Positions 3,904-18,190 of a stretch of DNA of 25,803 nucleotides are shown here, piece by piece. Position 1 is the stretch's first letter. Each line of letters opens with the position of its first letter. Under the pieces are notes generated by a model that worked only from the letters and a program-made list of their open reading frames with translations, had not been told where the DNA came from and ran no database searches. Source of the DNA: a virus. The position numbers and the translations under genes were made by a program. The DNA lies in IMG/VR virus record IMGVR_UViG_3300021962_000578, positions 1-25,803 of that record. One strand, given 5' to 3'.

Positions 3904-4665
3904 ATGATTGGACTGATATCTTTATTAAAGGAAATTCAAGGTAAGCCAAAAGCAATCTTTATGGCCGGTCCTGCTGGATCAGGGAAATCATATATCTCTT
4001 CTAAATTAGTACCCTCAGATTTTACTACAATAAATGTAGATGATACCTATGAAGCCTTGTTAAAGGCTTCTGGTATTGGTATGAAGCTAGCCCAAATGTC
4101 ACCTGACGAACTAAAAAAATCAGGTGAATTAATGGGTCAAGCAAGAAAAACTACTACTAAAAAATATGAGGATGCTATTAAAGATGCTAAAAACATTTTA
4201 ATTGATAGTGTAGGAGGTTCTTCTAAAACACTCCTTAAGAAAAAACAACAATTAGAAGATTTAGGTTATGATACTATGATGATAATGACATACGTTTCGC
4301 CTATTACCTCACTAGAGCGTAATAAACAGCGAGACAGAACATTGTTGCCGAGTATTGTGATTCGTTCTTGGCGCGACGTAAATAAAAATATAGATACATA
4401 CAGACAAGCTTTTGGTCAAAATTTAATATTACTAAATCTAGATCCAGATAGTGCTAATAAAAAGTTCGATGAAGAATATATTTTTAAAACATTTATTGAA
4501 CCTTTAGGACAAATAGGTAAAGAAAAAACCCCTGAAGAAAAAGCAAAATCTGAAGAAGAAAAACAACAAATTTATTCTGATATCAAAAAAGCAATTGATA
4601 ACCAACCAGAATTTGATACATTAGAACACGCACAACAAAAAATTACTAACTTTATAAACAAATGA
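3904..4665 (+). CDS. P-loop kinase-like protein (zeta-toxin/AAA_33 type) with short leader
   Basis: A 253-residue protein with a clear Walker A motif, GPAGSGKS at residues 22-29, in the arrangement of small P-loop kinases. A strand ending in INVDD (about 45-49) and a later ILIDSVGG segment (about 99-106) fit the substrate-binding and Walker B regions of zeta-toxin-like or polynucleotide-kinase-like enzymes. An arginine-bearing segment, ERNKQRDR, fits a lid. The substrate cannot be predicted. The first ten residues, MIGLISLLKE, form a hydrophobic leader ending in L-K-E, similar to the other leader-bearing proteins here, so the enzyme may be delivered from the capsid (inference). The C-terminal 50 residues are charged and probably helical. 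The stop overlaps the next ATG by 4 bp. Confidence 0.68.
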   Translation: MIGLISLLKEIQGKPKAIFMAGPAGSGKSYISSKLVPSDFTTINVDDTYEALLKASGIGMKLAQMSPDELKKSGELMGQARKTTTKKYEDAIKDAKNILIDSVGGSSKTLLKKKQQLEDLGYDTMMIMTYVSPITSLERNKQRDRTLLPSIVIRSWRDVNKNIDTYRQAFGQNLILLNLDPDSANKKFDEEYIFKTFIEPLGQIGKEKTPEEKAKSEEEKQQIYSDIKKAIDNQPEFDTLEHAQQKITNFINK

Positions 4666-5027: not shown

Positions 5028-8000
5028 ATGAATAAACTAACTAAATTCCTTATTAAGGAACTGTTAGATGAACCTCAAACAGTGGCCATTTATGGTGGTG
5101 GGTTTAAACCCCCTACTAAAGGTCATTTTAATGTAGCTGAAAAAGTATTAGCTAATTTTCCTGAAATAGATGAATTAAAAATATTTGTAGGTAGTGGTGT
5201 TAGGGATGGTATTACTCAAGACGAATCTATTAAAGTTTGGAATATCTACAAAAATTACCTTTCAGATAAAGTAGATGTAGAACCATCTATTGCCCCTGTT
5301 AAATCAGTTTTAGGATACGCTAAAGAAAATCCTGATACAAAAGTATATTGGATATTAGGAGCTAGAGAGGGTGATGAAGAAGATTTAAAAGATATTGTTA
5401 GTAGAACTAGAAGTATTGATAAATATCCTAATTTAGAGGTTAAAGTTATTTCTACAAAAGGTGGTGTTAGTGGTACTAAAACTAGAAAAGCAATAGCCGA
5501 CAATAATAAAGAACAATTTTTTTATATGATTCCTGATGTTAAAGAAAAGGAAGAAATATGGGATATTGTTTCTAACCTTCAAGAATCAGTTACTCCAGAT
5601 GAATTAAAACAAGCAGATGCTTTTGCTGATAAACAATTAGCTCCTATTGATATTGACTTAACATCAGATCATGTCTTAAAAAGACTAACAGGCAGAGATT
5701 CAGATGTTACTTTAGCTCAATTAATAGGATTTTTTAAACGTTTAGGTAAACGTAAAAAAGAGTTTATGGATTTCTTTTCTAAGTTTAAAGAAATTGTAGC
5801 TACAGATGATAGAACAAATTTAAATATTCCTTTTATTAATTTAGCAAACAAAGCAATTGCTAAAACAATTATGCGAAAGGATGATTTTGAAACATCAAAT
5901 CCAAAGTTAGTATTTGAAGTAGGCGAAGCAAATCTTAAACCATATGATTGGGAAGAAACTGATAGATATGACAGAACTTTAGAAGTTAGATTTACAACAG
6001 ATTCAGAAACAGATTATATAGTTGAACTTACTGCTTTTTCTTGGAGAAACATACCAGCAATTGATATAGAATTTTCTGCTAGACTTAAAAATGATGGTGG
6101 TTTTTCTTCTAAAAGAATGACTAATAAAGGTGAATTATTTAAAGTAATGGCTACCATTACTGATATTGTAAAACACTATACTGATGAAGCAGGAGTTAAA
6201 GTTTTAATTTATTCTCCTCATAAAAAATCATCAGATGACATTTCAAACCAAAGAGGTAAACTTTATAGAACATTTATCCAAAAACAATTTCCTGGTGTCA
6301 AATTTAAAGTTATTGCTGGTGAAACAGATATTGCTATTTTACCTGGTTGGGAAAAGACAATTGATTTTGAACCTACAGATGATTTAATTAATGAAGGTCG
6401 TTATGATTCTTTAACTAGAAATGTTGTTAGAGATATTATGGACGATTGGAAATCTCAATTTGATGGTTCAAATGGTAAATTAGAGTTTAATGAAGATTAC
6501 GAGAGTGGAGTTATTGATTTTGAACTTTATGCTGTACTAACTGTTAAAGAAACTAAGTATGGATTATATAAAGTTGATGGTGGGGCTGACCCATTAAGAA
6601 AACCAGCTTATTTAGAAATTAAATTCCAAGTTGACCCAAGAGATTTACCTCAAAAATGGGAAGACATTTATATGGATTTAACGGATGTTGTTAGACACGA
6701 GTTAGAACATATGACTCAACAAGGTACTAACGTTATTGCCTCTAAAGAAATGGCTGATGATGAAATACTTAGAAAATTAATTAAACTAAAATTCTTACCA
6801 AAATCAGATTACTATAAATTAGAACAAGAGGTAGATGCTATGCTTCAGGGTATGTACTTGAAAGCTAAAAAATCTAAAACACCTTTTATAGAGGTAATTA
6901 ATGATTATTTTGATAAAGCAAGAGTGAGTAAAAAAGATAGACAAGATATTTTAGATCTATGGAGACAAAGAGCAAAAGCTTTATCTTTACCTTTAAATGA
7001 GGCTGACCCTAAAAAAGGAACAGGTAAAAAACCAAAAGGATCTGGTCGTAGATTATACACAGATGAAAATCCTAAAGATACAGTAGGTATTTCTTTTAAA
7101 ACAAAAGAAGATATTGTTGATACTTTAAATAAAGCATCTTTTAAATCAAAATCACATGCTCGTCAATCTCAAATTATTAATTTAATTCATCAACGAGTTA
7201 GAGCTGCCTATGGTAAAGCAAAAGATCCTGAGGTAAAAGCAAGATTAAAACGTGGTTTAGATTATATTGAATCACGTAAAGAAGCATCTAAAAAGAAAAC
7301 AGAACGTTTACGCAAAATGAAAGAAGCCTCAGACCCACAAGCTGGAACAGCTTTACCTTTAAAAGAAAACTACTCTGAACTTGAACAGTATAGGAAGTTA
7401 ATACTTAAACAACTTATAGATTCAAAAATAGGCAAACAGATAAGAAATGCAGTTGAAGATAAAGTTGGAAAAGAAGCTGTAGAAGGAGTTTATATAATAG
7501 GATCTGTGTTAGATTCAAAAAAATTTCATGAAGAAAGCGATATAGACATAGCGGTGCTTATAAATGTTCCTAATATGGATAAGGGGACTAATGAAGAAAT
7601 GAGCTATGAACTCTCCCAAACATATTCAATTCCAGATGGAGGTTTTGTTGATGTATCTATATGGAATAGATCCAAACCTTTAGGGAAAATGGTAAAACTT
7701 AAAGAAGCCTCAGACCCACAAGCTGGAACCGCTTTACCTTATGGTTCAGGATTTGCTCCTGTAAAAGAATTAGTAACAGCTACACAAGTCATTTGTGATA
7801 ATTGTGGTTGGGAATGGGATAAAAAAGATGGTGGTAAAGACTTATATATTTGTCATAAGTGTGGACATGATAATACCCCTAGTAAAGATTTATTTGGTTT
7901 AAATGAATTAGCAAGAACTTTTGTAAAAGAAGTTTTTGAAGAAAGTTGGAATCCCAAAGAAGCATTCTTATCTTTATGTGTATTTATGAAAGACAATGGA

Positions 8001-8321
8001 ATGAACATACTCCCATTGCCTAAAATTAAGGTTATATCGGACGATAAAGAAAACGCGTCTCGTCTTTTGGGTAAGACAGCTTATTACAATCCAGCTGACA
8101 AGTCAATTACTCTTTACACCTTTGGAAGGCACCCAAAAGACGTTCTACGTTCTTTTGCCCATGAGATGGTTCACCATGAACAAAACTTAAATGATACATT
8201 AGGAAATATTAGCACAACTAATACAAATGAAGATGGTCATTTAGAAAAGTTAGAAAAAGAAGCATATTTAAAAGGTAACATTATGTTACGTAACTGGGAA
8301 GATAGTATAAAAAATGTATAA
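5028..8321 (+). CDS. Multidomain (possibly self-separating) protein: nucleotidyltransferases, HExxH domains, zinc ribbon
   Basis: A 1097-residue mosaic. Residues 1-15: leader ending L-D-E. About 17-185: cytidylyltransferase/NMNAT-like fold with GGGFKPPTKGH (T/HxGH motif, 23-33) and VSGTKTR (147-153). About 190-450: two regions not recognised. L-I-N-E at 453-456, then a metallopeptidase-like domain with HELEH at 557-561. L-N-E at 656-658, then a basic module (about 659-765) resembling what I remember as DUF5872. M-K-E at 764-766 and L-K-E at 778-780, then a Pol-beta-type nucleotidyltransferase (GS at 825-826, SDID 837-840, D875). L-K-E at 891-893, then a zinc ribbon (C923, C926, C942, C945). 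L-N-E at 958-960, then a second HExxH domain (HEMVHH, 1045-1050). Domain junctions coincide with L/I/M-x-E sites, so I infer cleavage by the prohead protease into separate products. Domain calls are firm for the first nucleotidyltransferase and moderate for the rest. Confidence 0.75.
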   Translation: MNKLTKFLIKELLDEPQTVAIYGGGFKPPTKGHFNVAEKVLANFPEIDELKIFVGSGVRDGITQDESIKVWNIYKNYLSDKVDVEPSIAPVKSVLGYAKENPDTKVYWILGAREGDEEDLKDIVSRTRSIDKYPNLEVKVISTKGGVSGTKTRKAIADNNKEQFFYMIPDVKEKEEIWDIVSNLQESVTPDELKQADAFADKQLAPIDIDLTSDHVLKRLTGRDSDVTLAQLIGFFKRLGKRKKEFMDFFSKFKEIVATDDRTNLNIPFINLANKAIAKTIMRKDDFETSNPKLVFEVGEANLKPYDWEETDRYDRTLEVRFTTDSETDYIVELTAFSWRNIPAIDIEFSARLKNDGGFSSKRMTNKGELFKVMATITDIVKHYTDEAGVKVLIYSPHKKSSDDISNQRGKLYRTFIQKQFPGVKFKVIAGETDIAILPGWEKTIDFEPTDDLINEGRYDSLTRNVVRDIMDDWKSQFDGSNGKLEFNEDYESGVIDFELYAVLTVKETKYGLYKVDGGADPLRKPAYLEIKFQVDPRDLPQKWEDIYMDLTDVVRHELEHMTQQGTNVIASKEMADDEILRKLIKLKFLPKSDYYKLEQEVDAMLQGMYLKAKKSKTPFIEVINDYFDKARVSKKDRQDILDLWRQRAKALSLPLNEADPKKGTGKKPKGSGRRLYTDENPKDTVGISFKTKEDIVDTLNKASFKSKSHARQSQIINLIHQRVRAAYGKAKDPEVKARLKRGLDYIESRKEASKKKTERLRKMKEASDPQAGTALPLKENYSELEQYRKLILKQLIDSKIGKQIRNAVEDKVGKEAVEGVYIIGSVLDSKKFHEESDIDIAVLINVPNMDKGTNEEMSYELSQTYSIPDGGFVDVSIWNRSKPLGKMVKLKEASDPQAGTALPYGSGFAPVKELVTATQVICDNCGWEWDKKDGGKDLYICHKCGHDNTPSKDLFGLNELARTFVKEVFEESWNPKEAFLSLCVFMKDNGMNILPLPKIKVISDDKENASRLLGKTAYYNPADKSITLYTFGRHPKDVLRSFAHEMVHHEQNLNDTLGNISTTNTNEDGHLEKLEKEAYLKGNIMLRNWEDSIKNV
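7320..7359 (+). repeat. 40-bp direct repeat, copy 1, coding KEASDPQAGTALP linker
   Basis: This 40-bp stretch inside the multidomain gene matches 7701-7740 at 39 of 40 positions; the only difference is a synonymous A/C in an Ala-preceding Thr codon. The copies are 381 bp (127 codons) apart and in frame. They flank the Pol-beta-like nucleotidyltransferase domain and encode a Pro/Gly/Ala linker that follows a candidate protease site. Confidence 0.9.
7701..7740 (+). repeat. 40-bp direct repeat, copy 2
   Basis: Second copy of the 7320-7359 repeat. It lies between the nucleotidyltransferase and the zinc ribbon/HExxH part of the same protein. Nucleotide-level identity far above that of the flanks implies recent duplication, gene conversion or recombination-mediated cassette insertion. 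Confidence 0.9.
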
Positions 8322-8859
8322 ATTAAAATTAACAGATGTATACAAGCAGCTTAAAGAGGATGAAAACCAAGCTGAAGAACAAAGATACAGAATCTATTGT
8401 GATATGGATGGCGTACTTTGTGACTTTGATAAGCGTTTTACTTCTCTAAACCCAGAACACCTTTCTCCAACTCAATATGATGCCAAGTATGGTTCAGAAA
8501 AGTTTTGGGATTTAATTGACAATCAAGTAGGTGTTAAGTTTTGGGTAGGTATTCCTTGGATGAAGGATGGTAAAGAATTATGGGATTATATTTCAAAATA
8601 TAAACCAACACTTTTATCGGCTCCTTCGCGACAAAACGAATCACGTTTAGGAAAACGTTTATGGGTTAAAAATAATATCCCTGGAACTAAATTGATTCTT
8701 TCATCAGCTTCTAAAAAACAAAATTATTCCGGCAGAGATAAAATACTTATCGATGATCGCCCAGATAATATCGAACAATGGAGATCAAAAGGTGGTATAG
8801 GTATTTTACATACAAGTGCCGCTGACACGATTAAACAATTACAAAATATAGGACTATAA
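8314..8859 (+). CDS. 5'(3')-deoxyribonucleotidase-like HAD phosphatase with leader
   Basis: A 181-residue HAD-superfamily protein. Motif I is YCDMDGVLCDFD (nucleophile D30, acid/base D32), motif II may be S102 in LLSAP, and motif IV is LIDDRPDN (D147, D148). The size, the WVGIPWM segment and the ILIDDRPDNI ending fit 5'(3')-deoxyribonucleotidases, which remove phosphate from dNMPs. In phages these could recycle host nucleotides or adjust pools. The N-terminus adds about 25 residues before the HAD core: KLTDVYKQLKEDENQ, with L-K-E at 13-15, another candidate head-targeting leader. The ATG overlaps the end of the multidomain gene by 8 bp, so co-translation is likely. The enzyme family call is strong; substrate preference and encapsidation are inferred. 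Confidence 0.8.
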   Translation: MYKLKLTDVYKQLKEDENQAEEQRYRIYCDMDGVLCDFDKRFTSLNPEHLSPTQYDAKYGSEKFWDLIDNQVGVKFWVGIPWMKDGKELWDYISKYKPTLLSAPSRQNESRLGKRLWVKNNIPGTKLILSSASKKQNYSGRDKILIDDRPDNIEQWRSKGGIGILHTSAADTIKQLQNIGL

Positions 8860-10481: not shown

Positions 10482-10724
10482 ATGGAAAAGTATTTACAAA
10501 ATAAAAGATTGTTTAATAGTCCTATAACTATTACTAAGGATACTATTGTAAATCAAACTCCTCCCCCTCCAACTCCTAAAAAAGTAACACCTACTCCAAA
10601 ACCAGAACCAAAAATTGAAGAAATAATTCCTGAACCTATTCAAGAAGAAATAATTGATGAGGTTCAAGAAGAAATAATTAAACCAAAACGTACTCGTAAG
10701 AAAAAAACCGATGAAGGATATTAA
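10482..10724 (+). CDS. Small Pro/Glu-rich basic-tailed protein
   Basis: About 80 residues from the ATG at 10482; an in-frame ATG at 10467 would add five residues and overlap the upstream gene. The N-terminus MEKYLQNKRLFNSPI is followed by a proline-rich stretch (TPPPPTPKKVTPTPKPEPK), then Glu/Ile repeats (IEEIIPEPIQEEII, VQEEIIKPK) and a basic end RTRKKK. It is evidently disordered. A 17-bp exact repeat (10639-10655 and 10663-10679) underlies the QEEII repeats and suggests slippage. It might be a flexible linker or spacer protein, but function is unknown. Its end overlaps the start of the 798-residue gene by 14 bp. Confidence 0.5.
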   Translation: MEKYLQNKRLFNSPITITKDTIVNQTPPPPTPKKVTPTPKPEPKIEEIIPEPIQEEIIDEVQEEIIKPKRTRKKKTDEGY

Positions 10725-13107
10725 AAAAATACAAGAATTCTTTTCTAAACCTTTAAACGAAGGTAAACAATTAGATATTACAGACTTTCAAAAAGTAGTT
10801 CAGGCCGTAAAATCAACAGGTCATCCTGCTACTGTAATGTTAGTTCCAAAATGGAACGAAATTGAAATCATTACAGGTATGAATGCTCCTGATGACATGA
10901 TTTATGATATTAGTAAAGCAACTTCTCCTCTAGGTTATAACCATAAAGAACTTTCTATGTCTGGTGATTCTTCAAGCTTAGGCAGAGGTGAGTATAGTGA
11001 GATTGAAAAAGTGAACGGTGGTCATATGGACTATCGCCGATTTGAAGAATCAGTAAAAGAAATGGAATACGGAGATCCAGTAGATGCTGTATTTAGAAAA
11101 TACGCTGGAAAAACTATCGAAATGGATTTTGAAGATATGGAGTCTGATTGGGCTAATCTTTTAAATGATTTAGAAGATTATTTCCCTGGAGATAAATTAT
11201 CTGACTTTATGGATAGTGGAGAGGCTGATCTTTATTTAGATGATTATAACATTACTCTTATGGAACCAATTATGGACAAAGATGTTGATTTGGATGTCTT
11301 AAAAAGAGCTAAAGCTAAAATGGATATTGATAAAATGAGATACGATGCTGGAATGCCTCCTATGGACTCAATTGCTAGCTTAAATGAAGATGAAGATATT
11401 GACTTTGAATATAGAGCTGTATTAGATAAATTCAAAGATATAATGAAGGGATTAGACGTTAAAGAAGCTGATGCCTTACAACAAAAATTAAAAGCCTATT
11501 TTGCTGGCTTAGACGAAAACATGAAAAAATCATTCACAGACTATACAAACCAAGAATTAGCTGCTTACGTTAAAAACACTAAAGATAAAAAAGCAGCTAA
11601 AGAATTACATAAACGCTCTCAAAAACTTAAAAATTTATCTCGTACTGATGTAAACGAGCGAGCGGATCATGTAAACCCAATGGTAGCTAAAGCATATAAA
11701 GATTATATTAAAGCCAAAAAAGACTCAGCTGCTGATATAGACTTTGCCGAAGACCCAGAAAAAGCATATCGCTACTACTCTAAAAAATTAAACAATACTT
11801 ACTCTACCAAAGCAGATAGAGATGCTATCGAAGCTATCTTAAAGAAAAAATACGGTAGTGCTTTAGAAGAATCCCTAAAAGAAATGGATATCAACGACCC
11901 AGTCGCTATGAAATTTAGAGCAGCTCAAGATAAGTTAGCCAAAATGAGAGCAGCTAATGCTGGTGATGATGGTAACGATAAATTCTTTGATGCAGCTAAA
12001 TTACGTGCTTTAAAATCTAAACGTGCTCAAATTATGCGTGATATGGAACAAGAAGCAGAACCAGAAGGTGGTCCAATTGCTAACCGTTACGGTGATATGC
12101 TTAATGCTGTTGATGCAGAAATTGCTAAAGAAAAAGCTATGATGGGTTTAGAAGAAAATAAACCTGCATTTAATGTTAACAACCACATCAAAGCTATCCA
12201 AATCCAATTACAACAATTGGGTGTTAAATATGAAATGTCAGGCAACCCATATAAACCATTTAAAGTAATTTACAAACCAGTAAACAAAGACGATAATTGG
12301 TATAAAAACTTTGATGATATTATATTCAGATATAATCTTGGAAGTGTTGTAAAAACAACAATGGATGAAGCTACAAAAGACGAAGAAACTACATTCCATA
12401 AAAAATTAGATAAATTAGTTCATGATACCTTTGGTAAAAGAAAAGGTGAACTAGAAGAAGCAGCTGACCAAAAACAAGCCGATATCTATGCTTATCAATT
12501 TATGCAATATTTTGATAAAATGAGAAGGATAGTTGGAAGTAACTTTGGAGATGATACTAGAAAAGAATTTGAAAAACTAGTACAAAATAAGTTTTCTAAC
12601 CATACAGTAAATGAAACAGAAGAATTAACCGAAGCATATGTTCCTTCAAACATTAAAGAATTTGCTAAAAGAAGAGGTGTATCTTCTTTAGTAAACAAAG
12701 TAGCAGGTTGGGCTGAAAAAGTAGGCGCTCGCATTACTGGCGGAACAGCAATTGGTAAAAATTATAACACTTTAATCCTCGATTTAGGTTACCAAACAGC
12801 CGATATTCGTATTGATATTGAAGACGAAACAATCGAATTATACGACGAACCAGTTTACAGCTTTGCTGATTTCAAAAATGTGTTTATTGAAGAAGTAACC
12901 CGTCAACAAATGGAACACGATGAAGAACAATTACGTCGTGAGCGTGGTTTAGAAGAAAAAATTGCTGAAGCATTAGATAAAATTAACGAAGAACTTTGCC
13001 CTGCTGGTAAAGCATATATTAAGAAAAGACAAGCAGCTGGCGAAAAATCATCTGCTTATCTTTCAGGTCGTGCTGTAAAGGTATGTAAAGGACAAATGAA
13101 AGGATGA
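10711..13107 (+). CDS. Large modular protein with multiple L-x-E sites, putative internal head polyprotein
   Basis: A 798-residue acidic, helix-rich protein. It begins with MKDIKKIQEFFSKPLNEGK, a leader with candidate cleavage after E17. Further L/I-x-E sites fall at module edges: LNE 224-226, LEE 480-482 before N, LEE 581-583 before A, LTE 639-641 before A, and INE 758-760. Between them are five or so separate regions: a first alpha/beta region (about 20-115), an acidic helical module (about 115-215), a coiled region (about 230-480), a small mixed module (about 485-550), and about 643-730 with an RITGG...NTLILDLGY strand pattern. The last is a compact basic module CPAGKAYIKKR...SSAYLSGRAVKVC (763-792). 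The segments ESVKEMEYGDPVDAVF (113-128) and ESLKEMDINDPVAMKF (387-402) are related. No enzyme motif is recognised. I infer a cleaved internal/scaffold-type polyprotein. Confidence 0.6.
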   Translation: MKDIKKIQEFFSKPLNEGKQLDITDFQKVVQAVKSTGHPATVMLVPKWNEIEIITGMNAPDDMIYDISKATSPLGYNHKELSMSGDSSSLGRGEYSEIEKVNGGHMDYRRFEESVKEMEYGDPVDAVFRKYAGKTIEMDFEDMESDWANLLNDLEDYFPGDKLSDFMDSGEADLYLDDYNITLMEPIMDKDVDLDVLKRAKAKMDIDKMRYDAGMPPMDSIASLNEDEDIDFEYRAVLDKFKDIMKGLDVKEADALQQKLKAYFAGLDENMKKSFTDYTNQELAAYVKNTKDKKAAKELHKRSQKLKNLSRTDVNERADHVNPMVAKAYKDYIKAKKDSAADIDFAEDPEKAYRYYSKKLNNTYSTKADRDAIEAILKKKYGSALEESLKEMDINDPVAMKFRAAQDKLAKMRAANAGDDGNDKFFDAAKLRALKSKRAQIMRDMEQEAEPEGGPIANRYGDMLNAVDAEIAKEKAMMGLEENKPAFNVNNHIKAIQIQLQQLGVKYEMSGNPYKPFKVIYKPVNKDDNWYKNFDDIIFRYNLGSVVKTTMDEATKDEETTFHKKLDKLVHDTFGKRKGELEEAADQKQADIYAYQFMQYFDKMRRIVGSNFGDDTRKEFEKLVQNKFSNHTVNETEELTEAYVPSNIKEFAKRRGVSSLVNKVAGWAEKVGARITGGTAIGKNYNTLILDLGYQTADIRIDIEDETIELYDEPVYSFADFKNVFIEEVTRQQMEHDEEQLRRERGLEEKIAEALDKINEELCPAGKAYIKKRQAAGEKSSAYLSGRAVKVCKGQMKG

Positions 13108-13420: not shown

Positions 13421-14974
13421 ATGGCAAACTTTGACTATAGAAAAGCTATAAAAGAAAATAAAGCTACCTTCTTTTCATCATTGACTGAAGGTCAATTTTC
13501 TTGGATGACTCAAGACACCGAACAACAAATCGGCTCAGAACCAGAAAATACAATCCCTGTATACATGTTTGATAATAAAGGTAAATCTTATTATGAAAAA
13601 GAGTATAGTGGGTATGGTGAATTTGGTGGTAAAGATTACTACGAATTAGTAGCTGAAATGAATGGCTACACAAAAGATGATGCTTATGAATTGGGTGGTA
13701 CTTTTAAAGATTTAAGAGGTATTGGTATTAAATTAGCTTTTGGTGATCTAGAACCAAAAAATGGTGGACCAGTATTATTTCCTGCTTTGGTCGCTGACCC
13801 AAGTATGTTTAACTATAAAACCCATGACTTTACTCAAGAAGCAGAAAACGATCCAAATCAATCTTGGTATGCTCCTGAAGAAGAGGAAGATGAAGATGAT
13901 AATTATTCTTGGGAAGATGAATATGGTGATGACGAAGAAATTGACGAAGGTAAAGACGAAATGAGCGCTGAAGAAAAAGCTAACGTATTCGTTAGAGAAG
14001 CTGAAGGCGAAGTAATGGTTGATGCTAAATTGTTATCTTCATATATTGACGAAATGATTTCTTTAGCAGATGATATGGATTACACTCCAGCTATTATTAA
14101 ATCATTAAAAGGCCTTAAATCAAAATTATCAGGTAAAATGAGTGTAAAAGATGCACTTGATTTTGTTAAAAAGACTATTGATATTACAGGTGATGATATT
14201 GATGCTATTGAAGCTTTAGGTCAAGCTACTAAATATAATGATGCCGTTATTGCTAAAGCAAAAGAAATTAGTGGTATCAAAGAAAATAAATCAAATAAAA
14301 TGACTAAAAAAGAATTAAAAGAAATTATCAAATCAGCTCTAATGAATGAGATTGATCTTGATATCGATAAAATGGAAGACGCTCCAGAATCTGAAGTTGA
14401 TTTCTTATCAGAAACCCAAAACAGAGAAGTATTAGCTATGGCTGATATGATCATGGATGCTTTGGGGGCTGAAAAATTTGTTGAAGAGTTAATCTTAGCA
14501 ATGTCCACAAACGAAGCTAAAGATAATTTAGAGCACATTATCCAAATGTATGATTTAGAAGATTATAGTTCTTTAAGAGAAGCTGAAGAAGAAGTAGAAA
14601 CAGAAGAAGAAGTAGACGTAGACGTTGAAGAACCAACTCCATCAGACGAACCAAAAGGTGGCATTGACGTAATGCAAAATGCTGATGCTGACTTAACTGG
14701 TGTTGAAAAAGAAGTTCAAGATAACTTAGAGGCAGCTATGGAAGCAGCTAAAAAATTGAACGACGAAAAATTACAACAACAAATTGGTAATTCATTAACA
14801 TTCTTTACTCGTCAGCATGTTGTTAAAGAAAACAACAAAAAATACTACAAAGACGCTGAAGCTGATGATGCTGAACATATTAAAGCTTTAGAAAAAGATA
14901 TGAAAGACGATAAAAAATCTTCTGAAAAATTGCAAGAAGCAATGTTCCCAATATTAAAGAAAATTTTAAAATAA
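13421..14974 (+). CDS. Large acidic modular protein with leader and internal leader-like helix
   Basis: A 517-residue acidic protein. The N-terminus MANFDYRKAIKENK continues to SSLTEG with candidate cleavage after E23. Residues about 25-150 form a first domain (SYYEKEYSGYGEF, GGTFKDLRGIGIKLAFGDL), then an acidic stretch (154-176, mostly D/E) ending in IDE-G. A helical region follows (about 180-288), then a second complete leader-like helix, MTKKELKEIIKSALMNE (294-310). After it come a helical module (about 330-380), another acidic linker (386-405) and a C-terminal helical module ending LQE-A (504-507) and FPILKKILK. L/I-x-E followed by G, N or A recurs at 23, 176, 288, 387 and 506. The internal ATG at 14300 could also initiate a separate shorter protein. 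No enzyme motif is recognised; a packaged, cleaved internal protein is inferred. Confidence 0.6.
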   Translation: MANFDYRKAIKENKATFFSSLTEGQFSWMTQDTEQQIGSEPENTIPVYMFDNKGKSYYEKEYSGYGEFGGKDYYELVAEMNGYTKDDAYELGGTFKDLRGIGIKLAFGDLEPKNGGPVLFPALVADPSMFNYKTHDFTQEAENDPNQSWYAPEEEEDEDDNYSWEDEYGDDEEIDEGKDEMSAEEKANVFVREAEGEVMVDAKLLSSYIDEMISLADDMDYTPAIIKSLKGLKSKLSGKMSVKDALDFVKKTIDITGDDIDAIEALGQATKYNDAVIAKAKEISGIKENKSNKMTKKELKEIIKSALMNEIDLDIDKMEDAPESEVDFLSETQNREVLAMADMIMDALGAEKFVEELILAMSTNEAKDNLEHIIQMYDLEDYSSLREAEEEVETEEEVDVDVEEPTPSDEPKGGIDVMQNADADLTGVEKEVQDNLEAAMEAAKKLNDEKLQQQIGNSLTFFTRQHVVKENNKKYYKDAEADDAEHIKALEKDMKDDKKSSEKLQEAMFPILKKILK

Positions 14975-14980
14975 AAGTAT

Positions 14981-15151
14981 ATGAACACACAAGAATTATT
15001 TGACAAAATTGACGCTTTATACGAAACATTTAAAGCTGAACACGCTGGTAAATCTAAAGCTGCTCACGGCCGCGCTCGTAAAGCTTTAGGTGAGATCAAA
15101 AAATTGATCACAGAATATCGTCAAGCATCCGTTGCTGAAGATAAAAAATAA
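14981..15151 (+). CDS. Histone H1/Hc1-like small basic protein
   Basis: A 56-residue protein from the ATG at 14981, 6 bp after the preceding stop. The N-terminal half is an amphipathic helix (MNTQELFDKIDALYETFKAEH), then SKAAHGRARKALGEIKKLI, then EYRQASVAEDKK. The K-x-K-A-A-x-x-R-A-R-K-A-x-x-E-I-K-K-L pattern and the size match small histone H1-like Hc1 proteins of Bacteroidetes as I remember them. These bind DNA and compact the nucleoid. It is too short to be caught by a typical length filter. It sits among putative internal head proteins, so it may coat packaged DNA or act on the host nucleoid (inference). Unlike many neighbours it lacks an L/I-x-E leader. A next gene begins 7 bp downstream. 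Confidence 0.72.
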   Translation: MNTQELFDKIDALYETFKAEHAGKSKAAHGRARKALGEIKKLITEYRQASVAEDKK

Positions 15152-15158
15152 AAATAAA

Positions 15159-15851
15159 ATGAAAGACAACTTCGATTTGAGAAAATACCTTGCTGAAGGT
15201 CGCTTATTAAAAGAAAACACAGGTAAAACCATTTCATATATTCAGGATGGTGACAACAAAATACTTTTTCTTCCTCCTGGAGAATATCCATTAATAGTAA
15301 GTGGATTTTATGGTGGTGGATCATATAGAAGTTTTAGAAAACAACCAGTGTCAACCCTTACTGTTAAAGATAATGGTTTAGAACTCCCAATTATACGTGG
15401 TAACCTTGTATATAAAAACACTCCACCGGTTACCCATCCAAACCAACTCCCTGATGGTTATTCTCCTTATGTAGATGCTTTTAGGGAAAAAGTTAAAAAA
15501 CGTAGAATTAGCGATGAAACTGGCCTTCATGTAGATTTAAGAGACTTTGATTTTAATGAAGTTGATAATTTTGATAATCTAGCTGAAGGCCGCTTATTGA
15601 AAGAAGCCATTGACTTCCCAGAAATGGAAGATGAGTTTGAAGGTGCTATGTTAGCTTCTACTCAGTCAAAAGAAAGCTATCTTAGAGATATTGCCGATAT
15701 TCCATATTATGAAATTGATTTAAGCGGCTACTATGAGGTAGAAAACGCTATAGAACAAGGAGTTTATACAGAAGAAGAAGCTTTGAAGCTTATGAAAAAA
15801 TGGGCTAAAGACAAATTACAAGAATTATATCGCGAAGGAAACTATGATTAA
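15159..15851 (+). CDS. Two-module protein with duplicated LAEGRLLKE leader
   Basis: A 230-residue protein from the ATG at 15159; an in-frame ATG at 15132 would overlap the Hc1-like gene and add nine low-complexity residues. The leader FDLRKYLAEGRLLKE (5-19) offers cleavage after LAE (before G14) and after LKE. A first module follows (about 22-130), strand-rich, with LPPGEYPLIVSGFYGGG and HPNQLPDGYSPYVDAF. The leader end recurs as FDNLAEGRLLKE (138-149), then a second, acidic helical module (150-230, IDFPEMEDEFEGAM, YYEVENAIEQGVYTEEEALKLM). The duplicated junction makes it look like two former genes or cassettes joined at the processing site. The C-terminal end overlaps the next gene by 8 bp. 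No known domain is recognised. Confidence 0.58.
   Translation: MKDNFDLRKYLAEGRLLKENTGKTISYIQDGDNKILFLPPGEYPLIVSGFYGGGSYRSFRKQPVSTLTVKDNGLELPIIRGNLVYKNTPPVTHPNQLPDGYSPYVDAFREKVKKRRISDETGLHVDLRDFDFNEVDNFDNLAEGRLLKEAIDFPEMEDEFEGAMLASTQSKESYLRDIADIPYYEIDLSGYYEVENAIEQGVYTEEEALKLMKKWAKDKLQELYREGNYD
15189..15215 (+). repeat. LAEGRLLKE-coding repeat, copy 1
   Basis: Twenty-seven bases coding LAEGRLLKE at the end of the leader. The second copy is at 15579-15605, in frame and 390 bp (130 codons) away. The two copies differ at only a few mostly synonymous positions, so homologous recombination or duplication of the junction is plausible. Confidence 0.7.
15579..15605 (+). repeat. LAEGRLLKE-coding repeat, copy 2
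   Basis: Second copy of the processing-site repeat, between the two modules of the same protein. Parallels the 40-bp repeat pair in the 5028-8321 gene: a candidate cleavage linker duplicated on both sides of a module. Confidence 0.7.
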
Positions 15852-16743
15852 CGAACGCGAACTTACTAAAGCCGAACTCAATAAAAGAGAAGAAATTATT
15901 AAAGACCTTAAAAAACAAAAAAAGTCTTTAGTAAAACGATATGGTAAGGACGCAGAAAAGGTTATGTATGGTCGCGCAACAAATATAGCTAAAAAACAAG
16001 CCGAATCAATGAACAAAGAAAAATTAAAAGAACTCGTTAGAAAATCTTTAATGAACGAAACAGAAGAATTTTCAGAAGAAGATATCCAAGATGTTATGAC
16101 AACTTTCAACATCTCTAGAGAAGAGGCTATTGACCACTTACGTCAACAAGAAGCTGATTACAGACGATTTGATATGGATGAAGCTAAAGGTAAAGACTTA
16201 GATGGTGATGGCGATGTTGATTCAGATGATTACTTAGCTGCTCGCGATGCTGCTATTAAAAAAGCTAAAGCAAAAAAAGAAATGAAAGAAGATATGGACT
16301 TAGGTCACGAAGACAACGAACCACACATGCTTAAAGCAGACCTTTATCGTATTGGAAAATACGCTATGGAATTATACCAAATGGTAGATGAGTTTGAAGG
16401 TAAAGGTGAGGTTGATTTTCCTCATTGGTGGCAAGCTAAAATTATTAATGCTAAAGAAGCTTTAGTTGGCGCTAAACATTATCTTGATTTTGAGATGAAA
16501 GAACCTCAAATCGATGCTATGGTAGATGTTGCTGCTGAAGAAGATGTAATCGATGAGGGCTTACCTAAAGGCTTTTGGGCTAAAAAGATTCCTGGTGGTT
16601 TAGACGAATCATACGAAACTTTAGTTAAAAAAATAACAGGACAAGGTAAGTCAGAAAAAGCAGCTAAAGCAATTGCTGGAGCTGTTGCTTCATACAAAGC
16701 AAAAGGCGGTGGAAAAGGTCCAACTGCTAAACAACGTAAATAA
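15844..16743 (+). CDS. Modular protein with EF-hand-like Ca2+ loop and internal leader
   Basis: A 299-residue protein. Residues 1-54 are a basic helical module (ELTKAELNKREEIIKDLKKQ, MYGRATNIAKKQAE). A complete leader-like helix follows at 56-72, MNKEKLKELVRKSLMNE. Then come an acidic region and MDE-A (111-114), and an EF-hand/dockerin-like loop DLDGDGDVDSDD at 118-129 with D118, D120, D122, G123, V125 and D126 at the canonical positions. Residues about 158-230 are a helical module with DFPHWWQAKIINAKEAL, then IDE-G (236-239) and a Lys/Ala-rich basic tail with GQGKSEKAAKAIAGA. Candidate I/L-x-E cleavage sites separate these modules. Ca2+ binding would couple processing or stability to ion conditions (inference). 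The start overlaps the preceding gene by 8 bp. Confidence 0.6.
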   Translation: MINERELTKAELNKREEIIKDLKKQKKSLVKRYGKDAEKVMYGRATNIAKKQAESMNKEKLKELVRKSLMNETEEFSEEDIQDVMTTFNISREEAIDHLRQQEADYRRFDMDEAKGKDLDGDGDVDSDDYLAARDAAIKKAKAKKEMKEDMDLGHEDNEPHMLKADLYRIGKYAMELYQMVDEFEGKGEVDFPHWWQAKIINAKEALVGAKHYLDFEMKEPQIDAMVDVAAEEDVIDEGLPKGFWAKKIPGGLDESYETLVKKITGQGKSEKAAKAIAGAVASYKAKGGGKGPTAKQRK

Positions 16744-17228
16744 TGACTCAAGACGAATTAAAAGAAAAAATCAAAATAATTGTCAGAAAGATAAGAAAAC
16801 CAGAACACTTATCTGCTGACGATACTGTTTCTTTAGATGCTCCTAAGTTCCCTGTTTTAGAAAAATTTCCAACATTAAAAGAAGTTATTGTTAATTTATT
16901 AACAGACCAATACGAATTATTTATAACAGATATCCAGTGGGTGGCTCCAAAACCAACCACTTTTCGTGTTATACTTGGGAATGGTGAAACTTTTATGTTA
17001 ACTTATTCCCCACGAAGTTGGATTGCTCAAATTGAAGGTAAAAAATATTACTTATTAAATTTGAGTGAAGAAGAATCAGCCACAGAAGCTATCGCTCGTA
17101 TTTTATCTTACGGAATGCAAGAAGAAGCAGGAGCAGAAGCTGAAGGAGGCGAAACAACAGCCGCTGAAACACCTGCTGCTGGAGAAGAACCAGCAGCTGC
17201 TGGAGAAGATATAACCGCTGAAGCATAA
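16743..17228 (+). CDS. Conserved-looking phage protein with Ala/Glu-rich tail
   Basis: A 161-residue protein. The N-terminus MTQDELKEKIKIIVRKI is a basic helix like the other leaders but has no good L/I-x-E site right after it. The folded core (about 35-118) has LEKFPTLKEVIVNLLTDQYE, FITDIQWVAPKPTTFRVIL and KKYYLLNLSEEE, which looks like one compact alpha/beta domain. The last 35 residues are a low-complexity Ala/Gly/Glu/Thr tail. From memory, the WVAPKPTTF core recurs in uncultured marine phages, probably as a virion-associated protein, but no function is known to me. It is tightly coupled to its neighbours (1-base overlaps at both ends). Confidence 0.58.
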   Translation: MTQDELKEKIKIIVRKIRKPEHLSADDTVSLDAPKFPVLEKFPTLKEVIVNLLTDQYELFITDIQWVAPKPTTFRVILGNGETFMLTYSPRSWIAQIEGKKYYLLNLSEEESATEAIARILSYGMQEEAGAEAEGGETTAAETPAAGEEPAAAGEDITAEA

Positions 17229-18190
17229 TGGAATTATCTAGAGAACATATAATTCATACTTTAGGAATCTCAGTTCCCTTAAATGAATCTGTCCAACTTA
17301 GCAGGTCTATGGAATTAAAAATTCTTCATGAACAAATGCTTTATGAAACATTTTTAGACACTGTAAAAAATTACGCCCAAGATAAATTAGATAAAGTAGT
17401 TTCTAAGATTAATGATTGGAAAGATTTTGCCGCTCATATTGGTCAAGTACTTTCTAATCCTGATTTTTTAAAAGATCTTTTAACTCCATTATATGGTAGA
17501 GTTTTAAGATTACTTAAACCCTTAAATGATTTTCTTAAAAAATTACAACTTGATAGTTTTATCCCTAAAATAAAAGATTTTTTAGAAAAAATTAAATCTC
17601 AAGGAGGGTGGAAAGCATTTATGGGATTTGTAGCTTTAGGAAGTATTATTACTTATATTACTAATAAACTAAAAAATTTAGCCCCAGACGCTATTAAAGA
17701 TTTTCTTACTAAACAATTTTCTGGAGATTTTGTAACCACTATTTTTAGTAAATTAACAGACTGGAAATCATATTTAGGATATTTACAACCTGTTGTAAAA
17801 GGTGCAGAAGTTATTTTTGACTTTTTACAACCTTTTTTACAAGCGGCTGTATTATCTAAAAAACAAGGTGGATATTTAAACTTAATGAGAGAAAACAAAA
17901 TGAAAAAATCAGACTTAAAAAAATTAATTAGAGAACGAATTTTAGAAGAAGCTGAAGTCGCTCCTACACTTCAAGGTCAGATAAAAACCGAATTATTTAA
18001 AAAATTAGGAGTAGCAGATTTTGATCCTGCTAAATTTTCTACAACAATTAATTTAGTAAAACAAAATAAATCATTAAATACAGCCGCTAATAAAGTATTA
18101 GCAGATGTTATGATTGCTATGATTAAAACAAGTGATGATAACTTGTTAAATCAAATATTTTCTAACTTAAAACAAATCGAAGCCAAATAA
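17228..18190 (+). CDS. Helical protein with hydrophobic segment and internal leader, possible two-protein fusion
   Basis: A 320-residue protein. The leader ends SVPLNES with candidate cleavage after E20. Residues about 30-125 are amphipathic helices, followed by a hydrophobic stretch at about 128-145 (WKAFMGFVALGSIITYI) that could insert in a membrane, then more helices to about 215. An entirely new leader then begins at M225: MKKSDLKKLIRERILEEAE, nearly the same as the start of the 22951 gene. It is followed by an 80-residue helical module (QIKTELFKKLGVADFDPAKF and onward). The ATG at 17900 could start the second half independently, or the two may be separated by cleavage near LEE-A. I infer fusion of two leader-bearing genes. 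No homologue is recognised. Confidence 0.58.
   Translation: MELSREHIIHTLGISVPLNESVQLSRSMELKILHEQMLYETFLDTVKNYAQDKLDKVVSKINDWKDFAAHIGQVLSNPDFLKDLLTPLYGRVLRLLKPLNDFLKKLQLDSFIPKIKDFLEKIKSQGGWKAFMGFVALGSIITYITNKLKNLAPDAIKDFLTKQFSGDFVTTIFSKLTDWKSYLGYLQPVVKGAEVIFDFLQPFLQAAVLSKKQGGYLNLMRENKMKKSDLKKLIRERILEEAEVAPTLQGQIKTELFKKLGVADFDPAKFSTTINLVKQNKSLNTAANKVLADVMIAMIKTSDDNLLNQIFSNLKQIEAK

Follow-up and report, generated by a model that had tools for sequence, protein, structure and literature searches.

The window, i.e. the whole 25.8-kb virus fragment analysed here as its source record, contains a gene whose product is, in our judgement, probably a polyvalent polyprotein with interchangeable cassettes that are bounded by predicted cleavage sites and exchanged through recombination at junction repeats. 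The comparison of related sequences reveals cassette shuffling, a recent transfer, empty-site alleles and junctions located at [LIVMF]xE.

The polyprotein gene and its context

The window phage is a T4-like virus, probably of Flavobacteria. Among isolates, the Flavobacterium immuto phages are closest to it; they encode T4-like gp20 and gp23 proteins, a prohead core protease and a recombinase of the RecA type. The polyprotein gene (Table 1) encodes, in this order, an NMNAT-like domain, D2, D3 (DUF6934-like), the metallopeptidase-like domain Zmp1, SHARQ, linker 1, a nucleotidyltransferase, linker 2, a Zn ribbon and the metallopeptidase-like domain Zmp2, where all domain names outside the Pfam matches are working labels of the present analysis. 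The N-terminal extension in front of the NMNAT domain might be a capsid-targeting-like leader.

The neighbouring genes show some related features. A zeta-toxin-like kinase with an N-terminal LLKE leader (window 3904-4665; PF06414, 2.4e-10) adjoins the polyprotein gene, and an NT5C-type 5' nucleotidase is encoded by a separate gene here (window 8314-8859), whereas the polyproteins of L058, L069 and L007 include it as a fused domain. The products of the long window ORFs 10711-13107, 13421-14974 and 15132-18190 may likewise be packaged and cleavable; these ORFs show an early LxE leader or numerous [LI]xE sites in their interior.

Table 1. Coordinates of the polyprotein gene and its parts in the window
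Feature	Position	Strand	Basis
Polyvalent-type polyprotein ORF, 1097 aa	5028..8321	+	Pfam matches and comparison of relatives
N-terminal extension MNKLTKFLIKELLDE, before the NMNAT domain, LxE/IxE-ended	5028..5072	+	T4 site comparison (PMC5694885)
SHARQ domain, left of the linker in most relatives	7044..7319	+	210/240 nt identical to L003
Linker copy 1, encodes KEASDPQAGTALP, then LKE	7320..7359	+	Sequence
Mobile nucleotidyltransferase cassette, 343 bp, from GAAAACTAC (E-N-Y) to KLKE	7364..7706	+	L030 comparison, Pfam
GAAAACTAC, single occurrence in the window	7365..7373	+	9-bp search of the window
Linker copy 2, encodes KEASDPQAGTALP, then the usual YGSGFAPVKE	7701..7740	+	Sequence
Zn-ribbon cassette (CDNCGWEW..CHKCGHDN), also widely shuffled	7765..7875	+	Weak Pfam zinc-ribbon matches
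C-terminal metallopeptidase-like domain (HEMVHH), in most relatives	7884..8321	+	PF14891, weak (0.0027)

The two linker copies

A preliminary description of this DNA had reported two 40-bp direct repeats with one mismatch, spaced 127 codons apart, with dissimilar flanks and a Pol-beta-like domain between them, and we could confirm each of these points. The copies are identical at 39/40 positions, the exception being an A/C mismatch in the third base of a Thr codon (ACA/ACC), and they lie 381 bp apart from start to start and in frame. Compared to the single linker of L003, only 30/120 positions match to the right of copy 1 and 40/120 to the left of copy 2, and the 113 residues between the copies give profile matches to PF18765 and PF01909. 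With a score of 37 against 13 for the runner-up, the pair far exceeds every other internal repeat of the ORF, and none of 100 codon shuffles of the ORF reached this level (best score 18).

The meaning of this identity is less straightforward. Given the same peptide, the chance of 12 matching codons is 10^-3.5 with the codon usage of the window. However, the linkers of different phages are also identical at 39 or more of 40 positions in 57/299 pairs (19%), so that the identity of the copies alone is weaker evidence than the preliminary description assumed. More informative are three codons, GCC-TCA-GCT, which both copies have in common and which occur together in no other linker listed; among the linkers of the 23 relatives listed, GCC is found in 0/23, TCA in 1/23 and GCT in 1/23. 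This combination marks the two copies as recent sisters. It also speaks against the view that a functional linker peptide was duplicated long ago, passed on vertically and kept similar by selection on protein and codons. The near invariance of the peptide and the 19% of unrelated-phage pairs sharing 39-40 of the 40 bases would fit such a history, but no relative with two copies was found, and the enclosed cassette has a foreign codon usage and is 98.5% identical to a sequence in another phage, which makes an old duplication very improbable. The idea that the linker is under special conservation at the DNA level was rejected, since the difference at fourfold positions is 0.25 as compared to 0.215 in the adjacent domain.

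Copy 1 lacks the YGSGFAP that comes after the linker in nearly all relatives. It is possible that its 'ALP-LKE' arose via a 21-bp deletion between CCTT repeats, in agreement with relatives that read FAPLKE. The first six bases of copy 2 (K-E) also form part of the shared end of the cassette.

The linker and domain orders in relatives

A degenerate scan of IMG/VR yielded 28 contigs with the linker, each with one copy per gene; none of the linker-bearing relatives found in IMG/VR has two copies in one gene. To the left of the linker, SHARQ is found in most cases, the Zn ribbon in L016, L019 and L024, and another domain in L002. To its right stand a Zn ribbon, the terminal metallopeptidase (either immediately or behind an FGLNE lead), SHARQ itself or one of three other domains, namely an SYQFKVSDK domain, an EGRYDSIT metallopeptidase domain and an NDQELD domain resembling an ADP-ribosyltransferase. 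A linker variant, KEADDPQAGKAAPYGSGYAKVK, is present in another gene of the isolate immuto. About 70 related ORFs show about 40 different domain orders; NMNAT almost always comes first and the metallopeptidase usually last.

L003 has the layout SHARQ-linker-YGSGFAPVKE-Zn ribbon and does not contain the nucleotidyltransferase cassette. It matches the window at 210/240 nt to the left of the junction and at 152/175 nt to the right and is an empty site for the cassette. The preliminary description had proposed to look in related contigs for linkers bordering other domains and for relatives with a single copy and no cassette, and both were found. Together with the occurrence of the cassette in a different gene of another phage, this bears out its proposal of a gain, loss and exchange of domains at linkers. 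Neither a linker confined to the window nor relatives that always carry both copies with the same domain were observed, since the linker borders other domains, single-copy relatives exist and the cassette is present in another phage. Its terms 'processing linker' and 'delivered protein' seem well motivated, both denoting presumed properties.

The nucleotidyltransferase cassette and its recent transfer

The cassette matches PF18765 (1.2e-6, 29.1 bits; cut-off 26.9) and PF01909 (3.6e-5, 24.5 bits; cut-off 21) and possesses the catalytic GS...DxD motif in the form of IIGSVLDSKKFHEESDIDIAV and FVDVSIW. With both the catalytic motif and the profile matches, it belongs to the Pol-beta superfamily of nucleotidyltransferases. 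Its predicted structure (pLDDT 51) is too uncertain to serve as a query in a structure search.

In L030, a 191-kb phage contig that is otherwise unrelated to the window at the nucleotide level, the cassette is present with 338/343 identical nucleotides (98.5%), in a different gene and downstream of a GNAT domain. Positions 7364-7706 form the sole blastn block common to the two loci, and homologous proteins of the two phages are merely 32-60% identical. Moreover, the cassette uses ATA for 10/11 Ile codons, as compared to 19% in the window, its codon usage lies at the 1.6th percentile, and a log10 likelihood ratio of 8.6 favours an L030-like codon usage. The high identity, the single shared block and the atypical codons indicate that the cassette moved recently, and a phage of the L030 type is its likelier source. 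A donor with exactly the arrangement of the window was not found among the sequences searched.

The shared block is bounded by E codons on either side, just inside the linkers, and L030 carries the cassette without a linker of the window type. The preliminary description had suggested swapping by recombination between linkers. Swapping at linkers is well supported, but an exchange within the linkers themselves is not, and since the transferred block stops inside them, the entry event was not a simple crossover in the window linker.

Related nucleotidyltransferase cassettes were absent from the isolate phages searched and from 84,980 bacterial and archaeal genomes, and the linker was likewise absent from these genomes. 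The NMNAT polyprotein of the isolate (immuto35A_182, L031:11173-13896) opens with a different Pol-beta-like domain (GSVKAGSKADFGDLDIIV), so that nucleotidyltransferases seem to be recurrent cassettes.

Repeat-flanked inserts in other phages

The same signature is found around other inserts. In the L030 gene each of the three segments begins with the 9 bp GAAAACTAC, which are absent from the rest of the 12.3-kb L030 locus, and the insert in L030 is bracketed by TATCTGATTT[GT][CA]AAGAAAACTACG with 22/24 identical positions. L090 and L106 contain a different insert, bracketed by a repeat of the same junction (540 bp from start to start) with 28/30 and 26/28 identical positions, respectively. In all three contigs the bracketing repeat is the strongest internal repeat, a strength reached in 0/100 codon shuffles each. 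L091 and L093 possess a single copy of this junction and no insert. Repeat-flanked cassettes with single-copy empty alleles are thus present in two genes and with three kinds of insert. Further recent two-sided exchanges connect L026 with L043 (455 bp, 96.7%) and L040 with L048 (131 bp, 96.2%).

Direct repeats around inserts in three settings, with one copy in the empty alleles, are also what a target-site duplication by a dedicated mobile element or nuclease would leave behind. We consider this improbable, because the repeats vary in length (40, 24 and 28-30 bp), their copies are imperfect and they coincide with conserved junction peptides. The insert in the window consists of the Pol-beta-type nucleotidyltransferase domain only and encodes no transposase, integrase, other recombinase of its own or homing nuclease, nor does it exhibit an attachment site or a splicing domain that would make it a transposon, integron or intein. 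An assembly chimera of two strains joined at the 40-bp linker also has to be weighed, since the window is a metagenomic contig and both linker flanks exist apart in relatives. However, the cassette is in frame with the linker at either end, and joining two strains at a single copy would not produce the two novel junctions. Three other contigs also contain comparable inserts between repeats, so that such an artefact is very unlikely.

Two additional observations concern these loci. The L048 ORF contains two tandem D3 domains at nt 132-640 (63% protein identity) with 41-bp leaders that are identical at 39/41 positions; this is suggestive of a leader duplication at most, since between-phage pairs reach 39 or more in 34/136 cases. 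The C-terminal tail GKSRPGRVK..YHWCANMKGGKKK (L030:6385-6555) recurs in 596 or more IMG/VR stretches, the region has no Pfam match, and the tail appears to be a very widespread, unnamed phage tail segment.

Junctions and prohead-protease sites

Breakpoints were defined as the positions where nucleotide similarity between related ORFs ends, which resulted in 514 distinct contexts from 63 ORFs, with random positions in the same ORFs as control. The motif [LIVMF]xE lies within three codons of 66% of the breakpoints as compared to 12% of the control positions, and [LIV][NKQ]E is enriched 9.5-fold. In 29 of 37 junction families most members have the motif at a distance of up to four codons; the corresponding binomial p-value of 2e-17 is too optimistic, as the junction families are still partly related and the breakpoints of this analysis are non-independent observations.

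LxE and IxE are sites of the type cut by the T4 prohead protease, and T4 Alt is processed by this enzyme after ITE-6 and LTE-619 (PMC5694885). A gp21-like protease (Peptidase_S77, PF03420) is encoded in the records of 10/20 relatives and in 6/6 of those with at least 140 kb. Relatives of the window phage combine such a protease with LxE/IxE sites at breakpoints and in N-terminal leaders, as is typical of T4-type substrates. In immuto, [LI]xE occurs at residues 6-24 in 17/22 genes of the region syntenic to the window and in 36/137 genes elsewhere (Fisher p 7e-6); this latter group comprises, among others, the genes for the capsid protein and the protease and neighbours located between portal and capsid. 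The syntenic genes would thus fit a set of head-packaged, protease-trimmed proteins, and the LxE leaders together with the syntenic position before the terminase indicate indirectly that the polyprotein may be packaged too.

One could also assume that the shuffling is real but unrelated to protease sites, i.e. that breakpoints fall at domain boundaries simply because no other recombinants work, with the composition of linkers producing LxE incidentally. That selection for functional recombinants leads to domain mosaicism is indeed established in phages (PMC10684548). Nevertheless, this explanation seems unlikely to us, since the enrichment is specific to hydrophobic-x-Glu: [LIVMF]xK, xD, xQ/N and xS/T as well as non-hydrophobic xxE show no enrichment at breakpoints (0.6-1.0-fold of control), and the same motif is present in the N-terminal leaders of the syntenic genes.

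Proposed mechanism and its significance

According to the mechanism we favour, short junctions, each with a hydrophobic-x-Glu site at its centre, would delimit the cassettes. A T4-type prohead protease probably cuts these junctions inside the head and thereby releases the domains, which would be injected as separate enzymes along with the DNA. Phage recombination might add or remove cassettes at junction repeats some 10 to 40 bp long, a site of action suggested by the resemblance of junction sequences across cassettes and phages. The L030-type nucleotidyltransferase cassette would have entered the SHARQ/Zn-ribbon junction together with a second linker copy, which either arrived as part of a linker-nucleotidyltransferase unit (for instance as a circle integrating by homology) or was duplicated upon insertion, and the direct repeats left behind would permit a precise in-frame loss. 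The nucleotidyltransferase might modify a host target. That the protein is cleaved and packaged, that the junction repeats serve homologous recombination and that the nucleotidyltransferase acts against the host are our inferences.

The mosaicism of polyvalent proteins was already known, but not how their domains move. The sequences analysed here resolve to the single base where cassettes begin and end, which alleles are empty, which repeats flank an insert and what a recent donor-type copy looks like. If the junctions are protease sites, an inserted domain would be freed as a separate enzyme and would not need to fold beside its neighbours, which would account for the tolerance of so many domain orders. 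The maturation of the head could then be tied, in a concrete and testable manner, to how injected anti-host proteins evolve. More tentatively, and with rather less confidence than we place in the cassette arrangement itself, maturation-protease sites of this phage group might double as the joints of a combinatorial payload, with cassettes between direct junction repeats gained and precisely lost in frame at a high rate. It is equally tentative that a phage population could in this way vary its sets of injected enzymes without dedicated recombination machinery.

Comparison with known systems

Polyvalent proteins are encoded by phages and conjugative elements and comprise 2 to 15 domains per polypeptide (Iyer et al. 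2017, PMC5512222). The protein described here has at least seven domain units in 1097 aa and a repertoire of conflict effectors (matches to PF18765, PF01909, PF13508 and PF15633, partly below the curated cut-offs). Like the proteins described by Iyer et al., it unites many effector-type domains in one chain (metallopeptidase, Pol-beta nucleotidyltransferase, ART, GNAT) and is extensively mosaic. These authors predicted that polyvalent proteins are packaged and likened small neighbouring ORFs to recombining polymorphic-toxin cassettes; they do not mention linkers or shuffling as such, and their Pol-beta nucleotidyltransferases come mainly from mobile elements of firmicutes (PMC5512222). In contrast, we observed cassette edges at hydrophobic-x-Glu, direct repeats, empty alleles and a transfer with 98.5% identity.

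The LxE/IxE sites, the N-terminal leaders and the gp21-like protease are shared with T4 internal head proteins and Alt (PMC5694885, PMC9958956), and the T4-like head genes of the relative immuto are a further likeness to that system. However, T4 proteins are trimmed at their ends, whereas the putative sites described here lie between many domains of one chain. Smug et al. (2023) also reported high-identity fragments common to otherwise unrelated phage proteins; most of the contemporary cases in that study concern receptor-binding proteins, endolysins and replication proteins, and it makes no mention of polyvalent proteins, linkers or prohead sites (PMC10684548). Within the literature covered, which is incomplete, we found no description of cassette edges at prohead-type sites or of repeat-flanked insertions with empty alleles.

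Polymorphic toxins consist of a constant part and exchangeable effector domains. The polyprotein resembles their cassettes, with which Iyer et al. drew a comparison (PMC5512222), in just this combination. Unlike in polymorphic toxins, the cassettes are both internal and terminal, several are present per protein, and the junctions are short peptides bearing LxE.
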